This document shows, piece by piece, positions 39,848 to 42,658 of a stretch of DNA of 64,000 nt. The translations under genes and the position numbers were made by a program. Within the stretch, counting starts at the first letter, position 1; every line of letters starts with the position of its first letter. Below the pieces are notes generated by a model. The model ran no database searches. It had not been told where the DNA came from and was given only the letters and a program-made list of their open reading frames with translations. This stretch comes from Rhizobium terrae (GTDB taxonomy: Bacteria; Pseudomonadota; Alphaproteobacteria; Rhizobiales; Rhizobiaceae), in contig NZ_QJKM01000002.1 in NCBI RefSeq assembly GCF_003425685.1, positions 1-64,000 on the forward strand. Direction: 5' to 3'.

Positions 39848-40264
39848 ATGCTGTCGATCGGCGATCTTTCGCGGCGCACCGGCGTCAAGGTGCCGACCAT
39901 CCGCTATTACGAGCAGATGGGCCTGATCGAGGCCGCGGAACGTTCCGAGGGCAACCAGCGGCGCTACGAACGGGACGATCTCGAACGGCTCGCCTTCATC
40001 CGCCACGCCCGCGACCTTGGCCTCGACATTCCGGCGATCCGTGAGCTGATCGCGCTCAGCCAGCACCCGAGCGAACCCTGCGCCGATGCCGACCGGATCG
40101 CCGCCGACCATCTTGCGGCGGTGCGCGAAAAGATCCAGAGGCTGAAGAAACTCGAACAGGAACTCGAACGCATCGTCTCCCACTGCGACGGCGGCCATTC
40201 GATCGAGGAATGCTACGTGATCCGGGCACTCTCGGACCATAGGCTGTGCGAAGGGGAGCATTGA
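39848..40264 (+). CDS. MerR-family metal-responsive regulator (ZntR/CadR/PbrR-like)
   Basis: A 138-residue MerR protein. The N-terminal winged helix reads MLSIGDLSRRTGVKVPTIRYYEQMGLI, then the dimerisation helix. Cys78, Cys113, His117 and Cys122 (CDGGHSIEEC) correspond in spacing to the Zn/Cd/Pb ligands of ZntR and PbrR, so a divalent metal is the probable signal. It is divergent from a small CXXCH protein and shares with it the MerR-type promoter. No transporter is adjacent, which is unusual for this subfamily. Confidence 0.88.
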   Translation: MLSIGDLSRRTGVKVPTIRYYEQMGLIEAAERSEGNQRRYERDDLERLAFIRHARDLGLDIPAIRELIALSQHPSEPCADADRIAADHLAAVREKIQRLKKLEQELERIVSHCDGGHSIEECYVIRALSDHRLCEGEH

Positions 40265-40282: not shown

Positions 40283-40645
40283 TTGGTTTTCTCCCATGAA
40301 GAAGCTGCAGACGGTCCCGAACTGCCGACATTTACAAATCAAGCGGCTGCTATTTTCTCACCGGAAGAGAAGGAAGACGTTATTTCCTTCCTCGCGTCCA
40401 ATCCGTTGGCAGGCGACGAGATTCCGGGCACCGGTGGGGTACGAAAGGTCCGTGTGGCGGCCAAAGGCAGAGGCAAACGCGGCGGCGCGCGGGTGATCTA
40501 TTACTGGTACAGCGAGGATGCCCCGCTTTACGCACTGCTGGTATACGCCAAGAACCAGAAGATCGATCTTTCCTCCGGTGCGGCGAAAACGGTTGCGGCC
40601 CTGGCAAGGGCGATCAAGGATCGCTACAGGACAAGGACGAGGTAA
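40283..40645 (+). CDS. RelE/HigB-like toxin (possible frameshift at its start)
   Basis: A 120-residue frame with RelE/HigB-2 features: PELPTFTNQAA, EEKEDVISFLASNPLAGDEIPGTGG, then RVIYYWYSEDAPLYALLVYAKNQKIDL. Such toxins cleave mRNA on the ribosome. The only start in frame is a TTG at 40283. An ATG at 40296 lies in another frame and encodes MKKLQTVP, which would join perfectly to ELPTFT if one C in CCC at 40317-40319 had been lost. The gene may therefore be frameshifted. The antitoxin gene follows 1 base later. Confidence 0.7.
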   Translation: MVFSHEEAADGPELPTFTNQAAAIFSPEEKEDVISFLASNPLAGDEIPGTGGVRKVRVAAKGRGKRGGARVIYYWYSEDAPLYALLVYAKNQKIDLSSGAAKTVAALARAIKDRYRTRTR

Positions 40646-40646
40646 C

Positions 40647-40955
40647 ATGCCGAAGAAATCCAATTTTGGTGCCGAATTGATCCAAGCCATGTCCGAAGCG
40701 CTTGCGCATGCCGACGGCGAGAGTGCAGGTGCGACCATCGTTCGTGAGATTGAAGTGGACACTCCCGATCCGAAGCAGATTCGCCGACGGCTGGAACTTA
40801 CCCAGGACCAGATGGCGAGGGTGCTTGGCATCAGCGTGTACGGCTATCGGAAATGGGAACAGGGACACCGGCGGATGAGCGGGCCGGCGGCAAATCTTCT
40901 GCGCGTGATGGAGAAGGAACCCGAAGCTGTGTTACGGGCTCTCTCTGCCGCGTAG
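40647..40955 (+). CDS. HigA-type antitoxin (Xre helix-turn-helix)
   Basis: A 102-residue protein. A helix-turn-helix of the Xre/HigA type is seen in RRRLELTQDQMARVLGISVYGYRKWEQGHRRMSGPAANLL. The N-terminal 40 residues probably bind the toxin. Order toxin then antitoxin with one base between is the normal HigBA layout. It is expected to repress its own operon. Confidence 0.85.
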   Translation: MPKKSNFGAELIQAMSEALAHADGESAGATIVREIEVDTPDPKQIRRRLELTQDQMARVLGISVYGYRKWEQGHRRMSGPAANLLRVMEKEPEAVLRALSAA

Positions 40956-41019
40956 TATTCAAGGCCTTCTGATGGCGCTTGGGCGCGGCGGACCTGTGCG
41001 TTTATTAGCGGGAATCGAC

Positions 41020-41982
41020 ATGGCCTCTCTCTTCCCTCCCTTCGCACCCCACGAAACCGGCTTCCTCGATACCGGCGACGGCAATCGTATCTTCTTTGCG
41101 CTCTCCGGCAATCCCGCGGGGCGTCCGGCGCTTCTGCTGCATGGCGGGCCGGGATCGGGAATGTCGGAGAGTGCGCGGCGGCATTTCGATCCAACTGTCT
41201 GGCGGATCATCCAGTTCGATCAGCGGGGTTGCGGAAAGAGCACGCCGAGCGCGGCGGAGTTCGAAAATACGCTTGCCGACAACACGACCCGCCACCTGAT
41301 CGGCGATATCGAAGCGTTGCGGGTGCTGCTCGGCATCGGGACATGGCTGGTATTCGGTTCGTCCTGGGGCGCGACGCTGGCGCTGGCCTATGCCGAGGAG
41401 TTTCCCGAGCGCGTGGACGCGATGGTCCTCGCCGGCGTCACCACGACGCGTTGGAGCGAAATCGACTGGCTCTACAGCGGCTTGGCGCTTTTCCTGCCCG
41501 AGGCTCACGAGCGGTTTGTCGCGGCGCTCCCCGGGGATCTGCGCACCAGGCATCCCGTCGAGGCCTATCGCGCGCTGCTCGATGATCCCGATCCCGGGAT
41601 ACGGCAGAAGGCGGCCTTCGACTGGCATGCCTGGGAGGCCGGCTCGGTTTCCGCCGATCCCAAGACGGATATGCCGGCGCGATGGCAGGATCCGCATTTC
41701 GCGCTCGCCCGGGCACGGCTCTGCGCCCACTACTTCCACCACCGCGCCTGGCTGGAAGACGGGCAACTGCTGCGCGACGCCTATCGGCTGGAAGGCATTC
41801 CCGGCGTGCTGATCCAGGGGCGGCTCGACCTGCAGGGACCGCCCGCCACGGCTTATGCACTGTCGAAAGCGTGGCCGGGCAGCGAGCTGGTCATGATCGA
41901 CGATGCCGGCCATTCGACCGGTGATCAGGGCATGGCCGAGGTGATCGTTGCGGCTACGAATCGATTCGTAAATCGCGCTTGA
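41020..41982 (+). CDS. pip: Proline iminopeptidase (S33 peptidase)
   Basis: A 320-residue alpha/beta hydrolase. HGGPGSGMSESARRHFDP and DQRGCGKSTPSAA are the classic proline iminopeptidase oxyanion and loop motifs; the nucleophile elbow is FGSSWGATLALAYAE and the catalytic His is in DDAGHSTG. It removes N-terminal proline from peptides in the cytoplasm. ATG 41020 has GCGGGA upstream; the longer frame to 40972 lacks family sequence. The stop overlaps the -35 of the next promoter. Confidence 0.93.
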   Translation: MASLFPPFAPHETGFLDTGDGNRIFFALSGNPAGRPALLLHGGPGSGMSESARRHFDPTVWRIIQFDQRGCGKSTPSAAEFENTLADNTTRHLIGDIEALRVLLGIGTWLVFGSSWGATLALAYAEEFPERVDAMVLAGVTTTRWSEIDWLYSGLALFLPEAHERFVAALPGDLRTRHPVEAYRALLDDPDPGIRQKAAFDWHAWEAGSVSADPKTDMPARWQDPHFALARARLCAHYFHHRAWLEDGQLLRDAYRLEGIPGVLIQGRLDLQGPPATAYALSKAWPGSELVMIDDAGHSTGDQGMAEVIVAATNRFVNRA

Positions 41983-42007
41983 CAAGGCAAAAGATCGGGA
42001 GCATCTA
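41979..42007 (+). promoter_or_regulatory. Sigma-70 promoter for the attenuator/GNAT unit
   Basis: TTGACA at 41979-41984 and CATCTA at 42002-42007 are separated by 17 bases. Transcription would begin about 42014, at the ATG of a 17-codon leader frame, so that frame would be leaderless. Confidence 0.75.
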
Positions 42008-42013
42008 AACGCC

Positions 42014-42067
42014 ATGATGAACACGCGCACCACCACCGCCTGCTCGTATTTTTGGGCCTACCTCTAA
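42014..42067 (+). CDS. Attenuator leader peptide, 17 residues
   Basis: The frame reads MMNTRTTTACSYFWAYL and ends with TAA. It has Tyr, Phe, Trp, Ala, Tyr in a row before the stop. It begins at the predicted transcription start, like known leaderless attenuator peptides in rhizobia. Three alternative RNA pairings lie across and after it (see next entry). It is most likely a translated sensor, not a functional product. Shortage of charged aromatic tRNAs would stall the ribosome over the segment that forms the first stem. Confidence 0.7.
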   Translation: MMNTRTTTACSYFWAYL

Positions 42068-42068
42068 G

Positions 42069-42124
42069 AGGCGGCCCGACAGTTCTTCATGTCAACAAGC
42101 CGCCGTCAGGCGGCTTAGTTGTTT
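42069..42124 (+). terminator. Attenuator: alternative antiterminator and terminator stems
   Basis: The terminator is AAGCCGCC (42097-42104) with GGCGGCTT (42109-42116), a 4-base loop, then AGTTGTTT. The antiterminator pairs GGCGGC (42070-42075) with GCCGCC (42099-42104). A competing first stem pairs CCGCCT in the leader frame (42036-42041) with AGGCGG (42069-42074). This is the 1:2, 2:3, 3:4 set of a ribosome-mediated attenuator. Confidence 0.7.
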
Positions 42125-42169
42125 AGACGGCACCTGACGGCACCCAAGACCGAAACAAGGATGCCGGAA

Positions 42170-42658
42170 ATGACCGAAGATACCGAGATTACCCTTCCCC
42201 GCCCGCCCGTCGTGACGATCCGCAGCGCCAAACCGCGCGACCTGCCGGAATTGAACGAGATGATCGCGCTGCTCGCGGCGCATCACAACGATCCCGCCGG
42301 CACGACGCCGGAAAAGCTGGAGCGCGACCTTTTCGGACCGATGCCGCGGATCACCACTCTCGTCGCCGATAGCGGCCCGGAGCTGATCGGCTATGCCATC
42401 CTCGTGCCGGTCTACCGGGTACAGGAAGGCAGGCGCGGCATGGACCTGCACCATCTCTTCGTGCGCGACGGCCATCGCGGCCACGGCATCGGCCAGCATC
42501 TCGTCACGCGTGCCCGCGAGATCGCCCGCAAGGCCGGCTGCGACTATCTCTCGGTCAGCGCCGCCACCGGCAACTTCGCCGCCCACCGCTTCTACGAACA
42601 GATGGATTTCGTGCCGCGCCCGGTCACCGGCATGCGCTACACGCAGGCCCTGGCTTGA
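42170..42658 (+). CDS. GNAT acetyltransferase under attenuator control
   Basis: A 162-residue GNAT enzyme. The N-terminal half has IRSAKPRDLPELNEMIALLAAHHND; the acetyl-CoA loop is VRDGHRGHGIGQHLV; the C-terminal half has SAATGNFAAHRFYEQMDF. The substrate is unknown. The gene is preceded by a transcription attenuator with an aromatic leader peptide, which suggests a link to aromatic amino acid supply. I chose ATG 42170 (AAGGA 9 bases upstream); an ATG at 42161 is also possible. Confidence 0.85.
   Translation: MTEDTEITLPRPPVVTIRSAKPRDLPELNEMIALLAAHHNDPAGTTPEKLERDLFGPMPRITTLVADSGPELIGYAILVPVYRVQEGRRGMDLHHLFVRDGHRGHGIGQHLVTRAREIARKAGCDYLSVSAATGNFAAHRFYEQMDFVPRPVTGMRYTQALA

Follow-up and report, generated by a model that had tools for sequence, protein, structure and literature searches.

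Attenuators of the trp type, as described for trp and pheA of Escherichia coli and for trpE(G) of Sinorhizobium meliloti, combine a leader peptide carrying control codons, three alternative stems between RNA segments (1:2, 2:3 and 3:4) and a terminator. Passages of PMC1183508 lead one to expect a sensitive choice among synonymous codons in such leaders, and the RNA of S. meliloti trpL is described as beginning at its ATG (passages of PMC10117765 and PMC7298713). The vmlR leader of Bacillus subtilis contains an upstream open reading frame (uORF), an anti-antiterminator, an antiterminator, a terminator and a hairpin sequestering the Shine–Dalgarno (SD) sequence, and an alternative pairing has been proposed to open the SD hairpin in the read-through RNA (passages of PMC9226507).

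Here we describe a leader that precedes a GNAT acetyltransferase gene in the window, the whole 64,000-nucleotide stretch of Rhizobium terrae DNA that was analyzed. It shares the control-codon peptide, the 1:2, 2:3 and 3:4 stems and the terminator with the trp-type attenuators but differs from them in combining control codons for three amino acids, in its GNAT target and apparently in two further segments, 5 and 6. With vmlR it shares the layout of a lock on transcription combined with one on the SD sequence; vmlR responds to antibiotics, has an SD sequence on its uORF and involves NusG pausing (passages of PMC9226507), whereas the sequence evidence for the GNAT leader points to the supply of aromatic aminoacyl-tRNA as the signal and to a leaderless frame. 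We consider it very probable that the element is a ribosome-mediated attenuator in which a low level of charged Tyr, Phe or Trp tRNA turns the GNAT gene on by a transcriptional switch. We further suggest that transcription and translation are both locked, in a manner resembling vmlR but driven by the supply of amino acids. The parts of the element are the following.

41979 to 42007, + strand: promoter TTGACA-N17-CATCTA (TTGACA at 41979–41984, CATCTA at 42002–42007), read in the sequence
42014 to 42067, + strand: small leader frame of 17 codons, MMNTRTTTACSYFWAYL and a stop codon, read in the sequence and kept in relatives
42047 to 42055, + strand: putative regulatory codons TAT TTT TGG (Tyr-Phe-Trp), from codon conservation and synonymous bias
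42052 to 42058, + strand: segment 1 (UUGGGCC), pairing with segment 2 according to the swap test
42070 to 42079, + strand: segment 2 (GGCGGCCCGA, with GGCGGC at 42070–42075), partner of segment 1 (anti-antiterminator) or of segment 3 (antiterminator)
42078 to 42093, + strand: inner hairpin GACA...UGUC of the antiterminator, from conserved alignment columns; unpaired in some divergent relatives
42097 to 42116, + strand: segments 3 and 4, the intrinsic terminator, with arms AAGCCGCC (42097–42104) and GGCGGCTT (42109–42116), loop GTCA and tail AGTTGTTT, the U tract being interrupted; from arm coupling
42103 to 42110, + strand: terminator loop with flanks (CCGUCAGG), pairing with segment 5 according to the paired alignment cells
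42128 to 42134, + strand: anti-SD strand CGGCACC, sharing CC with segment 5; from the swap test
42133 to 42140, + strand: segment 5 (CCUGACGG), complement of 42103–42110
42157 to 42166, + strand: SD region of the GNAT gene (AAGGAUGCCG, segment 6), pairing with the anti-SD strand
42170 to 42658, + strand: GNAT acetyltransferase gene, 162 amino acids (Pfam PF00583, 4.3e-17)

The −35 box contains the stop codon of an upstream alpha/beta-hydrolase gene (40972–41982), and 6 nucleotides separate CATCTA from the leader ATG at 42014. A pattern of the leader plus GGCGGC had a single occurrence in the 6.97-Mb genome, its backwards control having none. The RNA of 42014–42130 folds at −45.4 kcal/mol compared with −31.6 (SD 3.4) for shuffled sequences (z = −4.1), none of the 200 shuffles being as stable. 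An Rfam search of the window gave no match at the gathering score, the best weaker match at 41900–42200 being isrK with 14.5 of 50 bits. Neither a GNAT gene under aromatic attenuation nor this RNA was described among the full-text literature matches listed or in Rfam, and the leader was absent from the main-text passages of PMC2965389, PMC1273637 and PMC11109978. Control of an acetyltransferase is an unusual job for an attenuator.

The leader with a YFW run was found before the GNAT gene at all 30 loci examined in the genus, the window's own included, and at all 80 named loci, which are the best 80 of 216 confirmed relatives; the two sets overlap, as 20 of the 30 genus loci share an identical 200-nucleotide stretch with a named locus. 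All 36 genomes searched in the genus, the own genome included, had a GNAT match, and loci were taken from 30 of them. Among the best 80 of the 216 confirmed relatives, those closest to the window GNAT were from Neorhizobium and near relatives, the six top ones being 88–90% identical and five of these named Neorhizobium. Of 394 Rhizobiaceae genomes, 97 had a match to a covariance model of the leader (R1) at E ≤ 0.01 and 142 to a wider model (R2) at E ≤ 0.05; 107 sites matching R2 reached E ≤ 2.7e-6. We examined 40 divergent hits of the covariance models and found the leader in 39, L188 being false. By tblastn, a GNAT gene was present in 36 of the 40 at 49–77% identity, with YFW in 27 leaders and WYF in 9, and 3 of the 40 were leaders of tyrosyl-tRNA synthetase (TyrS) genes with YY. 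The reverse search found the GNAT at E ≤ 1e-30 in 75 of 317 Rhizobiaceae genomes, the own genome included, and in all 75 an R2 match was located on the same strand, 19–146 nucleotides upstream of the GNAT match. One of these matches was weak (genome G110, 0.0063), yet the leader there reads WFYY. Five more strong R2 matches in the 75 genomes lay away from the GNAT gene, and the three examined all belonged to TyrS (L167, L173 and L181). The first-pass annotation had proposed an attenuator with an aromatic leader before the GNAT gene, a reading that loss of the leader frame or stems in orthologues would speak against. The comparative evidence agrees with it: the frame is kept in the genus and named loci, the 2:3 and 3:4 stems are conserved, and the covariance-model search in Rhizobiaceae placed the element before the GNAT gene wherever the reverse search found one.

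For the following comparisons, we assembled 69 elements, each from the leader to the start codon of the gene: 35 of the 40 divergent hits, 5 class-level loci (below), the window, 27 of the 80 named loci and L030. The promoter and the 17-codon frame of the first-pass annotation can both be read in the sequence, and TTGACA was matched in at least five of six positions upstream of the ATG in 66 of the 69 elements, the remaining three being TyrS leaders. The −35 box lay 35–36 nucleotides from the ATG in 56 of these 66 elements and 34–39 in the other ten, as measured to an ATG chosen by script, which is the second of two in the window and several others. A simple promoter scan at the window locus returned no site and no consensus promoter. 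Judged from this spacing, transcription would start on or beside the leader ATG, giving a leaderless frame with the same layout as S. meliloti trpL (passages of PMC10117765 and PMC7298713).

That layout, and the finding that the core of the leader is strongly conserved at the nucleotide level, would also suit an element that works chiefly in trans, through its terminated RNA or the peptide, in the manner of rnTrpL and peTrpL of S. meliloti, with control of the GNAT gene being secondary. We regard this as very unlikely, as the R2 match stands directly before the GNAT gene in 75 of the 75 genomes that have one, covariation links the element to the gene's own SD sequence, and the N terminus of the peptide is variable.

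The peptide is variable throughout except for an all-aromatic run, which is YFW in the genus and the named loci, WYF in other genera and WFYY once (L230). Its N terminus varies among the 80 named loci (best 80 of 216), and the run is followed by residues as varied as AYL, LFR, TLLP and AYR. One GNAT leader lacks Trp (L231; YF without W in genome G127). The regulatory Phe codon was UUU in 63 of 63 distinct YFW/WYF leaders, compared with UUC for 25 of the 26 Phe codons elsewhere in these leaders; the regulatory Tyr codon was UAU in 60 of 63, with UAC for all 27 other Tyr codons, although these counts are nonindependent by descent and a constraint at the RNA level could contribute. The 38 long open reading frames of the window contain 108 TTT and 380 TTC codons. 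The bias for UUU over UUC points to the reading of codons and not to an action in the exit tunnel, and the leader most likely reads the supply of aromatic aminoacyl-tRNA, because the codons of related leaders fit the genes that they precede (below).

The codons of TATTTTTGG are identical in all 80 named loci (best 80 of 216), and such nucleotide constancy could also be expected if the leader arrested the ribosome through its nascent chain or sensed an antibiotic, as leaders of the vmlR or erm type do, with its aromatic residues acting in the exit tunnel and the GNAT serving as a resistance enzyme. Some GNATs inactivate antibiotics. The vmlR leader has the same layout of transcription and SD control (passages of PMC9226507). 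An arrest peptide should, however, have fixed residues at a fixed distance irrespective of codons, and we found a permuted run (YFW, WYF, WFYY), variable flanking residues and a codon-specific bias. In addition, the leaders of TyrS, tryptophanyl-tRNA synthetase (TrpS), prephenate dehydrogenase and DAHP synthase genes carry codons fitting the gene, and we consider an arrest peptide or antibiotic sensor to have little chance of being right.

Three mutually exclusive stems had been noted for the window, CCGCCT with AGGCGG, GGCGGC with GCCGCC, and the terminator. The latter two, 2:3 and 3:4, are conserved, but CCGCCT:AGGCGG had at least five of its six pairs in just 21 of 64 YFW/WYF leaders, and we rejected it as the anti-antiterminator. 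UUGGGCC:GGCCCGA (42052–42058 with 42073–42079) or its equivalent had at least six of seven pairs in 49 of the 64, a one-base register shift being permitted for this stem and not for CCGCCT:AGGCGG. Swap tests, comparing the own pairing of each element with that of swapped strands, gave z = −6.8 for 1:2, −7.8 for the 3:4 terminator arms and −3.0 for 2:3, the weakest of the signals, across the 69 elements; in hand-picked lineages (n = 33–36), 1:2 and 2:3 gave −6.3 and −2.9. The tests take out relatedness in part. By column counts, 73.4% of 1:2 was paired compared with 32–58% for slid alignments; there was one doubly changed pair only, and two of five column measures did not exceed the shuffles (499 and 491 of 500). 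The element thus has two of the features that mark an attenuator: a small frame, predicted to be translated, in which control codons cluster ahead of a terminator, and conserved, mutually exclusive 1:2, 2:3 and 3:4 helices.

The attenuator would work as follows. Transcription begins, by inference, at the leader ATG, and a ribosome stalled at UAU, UUU or UGG would cover segment 1 and leave segment 2 free; the antiterminator 2:3 could then form and RNA polymerase read through. After ribosome release, 1:2 would occupy segment 2. A ribosome footprint extends about 15 nucleotides past the first P-site base. Reasoning from the coordinates, a ribosome with a Tyr, Phe or Trp codon in its A site would cover segment 1 with GGCGGC remaining free, and one at the stop codon would cover GGCGGC. 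When the read-through RNA of 18 elements was folded at equilibrium with the leader masked, the terminator was favored in 17, and the probability of 2:3 was at least 0.4 in 2 of the 18 and 0.04 in the window; as equilibrium prefers the terminator, antitermination must be kinetic, taking place during transcription. Of this scheme, we infer the start site, the stalling, the kinetics, the SD release step described next and the role of the GNAT.

Additional to the three stems first noted are the pairing of the terminator loop with segment 5 and a lock on the SD sequence (42128–42166). In a read-through transcript with 2:3 formed, arm 4 and the terminator loop, no longer part of the terminator hairpin, would take segment 5, and this pairing would draw the anti-SD strand off and allow translation of the GNAT; otherwise the SD sequence would stay paired with 42128–42134. 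Taken alone, this release step seems to us somewhat more probable than not. Between loop and segment 5, the own pairs had −17.3 kcal/mol and the swapped ones −14.2 (0 of 20,000 permutations), with z = −11 for the 69 elements and −7.8 for a hand-picked set of one per lineage (n = 36). In 35 diverse sequences, the columns vary among G–C, A–U, U–A, C–G and G–U pairs, one being G–C 14, A–U 7, G–U 3 and U–A 2 times and the next U–A 14, C–G 7 and U–G 5 times. In total 84.6% of the cells were paired compared with 79.0% in shuffled (0 of 500) and 36–82% in slid alignments, and 23 cells were doubly changed compared with 11.7 in shuffles (1 of 500). There was no excess in the pairs with a double change (4 of 8 vs. 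3.4 shuffled; 230 of 500) or in pair types (10 vs. 10.6; 441 of 500).

The anti-SD and SD strands are similarly coupled, at −15.6 kcal/mol for own and −12.2 for swapped partners (0 of 20,000 permutations), with z = −11.2 for the 69 elements and −8.3 for the hand-picked set of one per lineage (n = 36). Examples are GCGUCC/GGACGC, GGCUCC/GGAGCC and ACUUUCCC/GGGAAAGU, as well as GGUCUCC/GGAGACC in a TyrS leader. Swap controls of equal relatedness stayed near zero, with z = −0.1 when the loop was set against the SD sequence, 0.0 for the reversed loop, and 0.7 and −0.2 when the start of the leader was set against either strand; the exception was the reversed anti-SD strand, at −2.1 and, in the hand-picked set, −0.9. 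A conserved hairpin thus covers the SD sequence of the gene, as a double lock entails.

The coupling of the two pairings is well shown, and the effect on translation that is predicted from them is modest. With 2:3 formed, the loop and arm 4 paired with segment 5 at a mean probability of 0.68, and the predicted openness of the SD sequence rose from a mean of 0.32 to 0.47 across the 69 elements, by more than 0.1 in 36 and with a decrease in 2; in the window the predicted rise was weak (0.26 to 0.39). This modest opening, with 33 of 69 elements not rising by more than 0.1 and L196 dropping from 0.67 to 0.18, is what one might see in a plain trp-type attenuator where segment 5 and the SD hairpin tune only mRNA stability or basal translation. 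We think such a restricted role rather unlikely, as segment 5 follows the terminator loop in several lineages (CCATCAGG/CCTGATGG, CCTTCGGG/CCCGAAGG and CCGCAAGG/CCTTGCGG) and the strand overlapping segment 5 follows the SD sequence.

Related leaders serve other genes in Alphaproteobacteria, with codons fitting each, the GNAT leaders having YFW or WYF. Class-wide searches found matches in 17 of 240 genomes with R2 and in 36 of 385 with a further model, R3. We read 24 class-level loci (12 + 12) and judged 12 true and 12 false (L195, L197, L198 and L214 at a single place, L199, L205, L207, L209, L215, L218, L223 and L227); since the models include the triplet columns and the leader was used in judging the hits, the class-level set leans to aromatic codons. 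The related leaders are these.

L167, L173, L181: YY leader before TyrS
L191: VYFARLP leader before TyrS
L194: IWWRSF leader before TrpS
L228: RWWRS leader before TrpS
L216: LYYAASH leader with a GTG start before prephenate/arogenate dehydrogenase
L219: SYFWYFSY leader before the DAHP synthase AroG
L192, L193, L196, L210, L211: WYF leaders before GNATs of another subfamily
L212, L213: YF and WYF leaders before small S4-domain proteins

The gene products reached the NCBIfam cut-offs at L191, L194, L216, L219, L228 and L173 and were identified by Pfam at L212, L213 and L181, that of L213 being under the Pfam cut-offs. The GNATs of L192, L193 and L196 are 25–31% identical to the window GNAT, and those of L210 and L211 are by eye like that of L196. 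The control codons fit the gene in all eight leaders of aromatic genes (L167, L173, L181, L191, L194, L216, L219 and L228), which match the same covariance models and, like the GNAT leader, have a leader frame and a terminator. All three codons stand before the enzyme of the common pathway and a gene's own codons before those of single pathways, as codon sensing predicts. Segment 5 and an anti-SD strand could be seen by eye in L167, L173, L181, L191, L194 and L216, as in the GNAT leader, whereas L219 and L228 had no clear anti-SD strand by eye. In L216 and L219, unlike the other leaders, the frame (25 and 26 codons) crosses segment 2 and has its stop codon past it; both score weakly against the model (0.0016 and 0.0054). 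Some of the synthetase leaders may reportedly be listed by Vitreschak 2004 and Lopatovskaya 2010. A pattern search for a trpE leader in the window's own genome gave 26 matches, of which 7 were read and none was convincing. The pattern of the DAHP leader was found in 0 of 9 in its genus, a count that carries no weight because the pattern missed its source genome too.

The S4-domain proteins of L212 and L213, 92 and 88 amino acids long, show a weak likeness to the C-terminal domain of TyrS. The TyrS frame after the YY leader of L181 (genome G314) ends at 190 amino acids with a domain match only at its start, and this copy looks broken or interrupted.

The window GNAT has an SSAT-type GNAT fold and is nearest in sequence and fold to spermidine/spermine and thialysine N-acetyltransferases (SSAT, SSAT2). 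Against the NCBIfam spermidine/spermine acetyltransferase model SpmdActasePaiA it scored 22.3 bits, below the curated cut-off of 250. An aromatic compound or a tRNA signal, suggested in the first-pass annotation, is a candidate target of the enzyme. More speculatively, the leaders may make up an RNA-controlled regulon of aromatic starvation that comprises synthetases, DAHP synthase and prephenate dehydrogenase and that has, on more than one occasion, taken in distant GNAT subfamilies under YFW/WYF leaders. A shortage of charged Tyr-, Phe- and Trp-tRNA might then signal an amine-bearing antimetabolite (an aromatic amino acid analogue or a poison of the shikimate pathway or the synthetases) that the GNAT acetylates, with the six-segment RNA acting as a true double lock until starvation; we offer this as a conjecture that is more doubtful than probable.

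The attenuator would connect an orphan acetyltransferase, conserved across many Rhizobiaceae, with one specific physiological cue, which would allow its substrate to be sought under defined conditions, and adds amino acid control to an RNA layout otherwise known to us only from an antibiotic-resistance gene. The leaders, with codons following the gene served, form a natural set useful for testing codon choice against attenuator sensitivity. Their tiny, apparently leaderless frames are easily missed in rhizobial genomes.

At 19 of the 80 named loci (best 80 of 216; e.g., L045, L051 and L079), a gene of the DJ-1/PfpI family directly follows the GNAT gene on the same strand, and from this arrangement the attenuator may control two genes where the two adjoin. 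Upstream of the hydrolase gene, the window contains at 40283–40952 (+ strand) a toxin–antitoxin pair consisting of a RelE-type toxin frame (PF06296, 2.4e-7) and then an HTH antitoxin-like frame (PF15731 MqsA_antitoxin, 6.5e-8), and a MerR-family regulator (PF13411, 5e-20) lies at 39848–40264 (+ strand).
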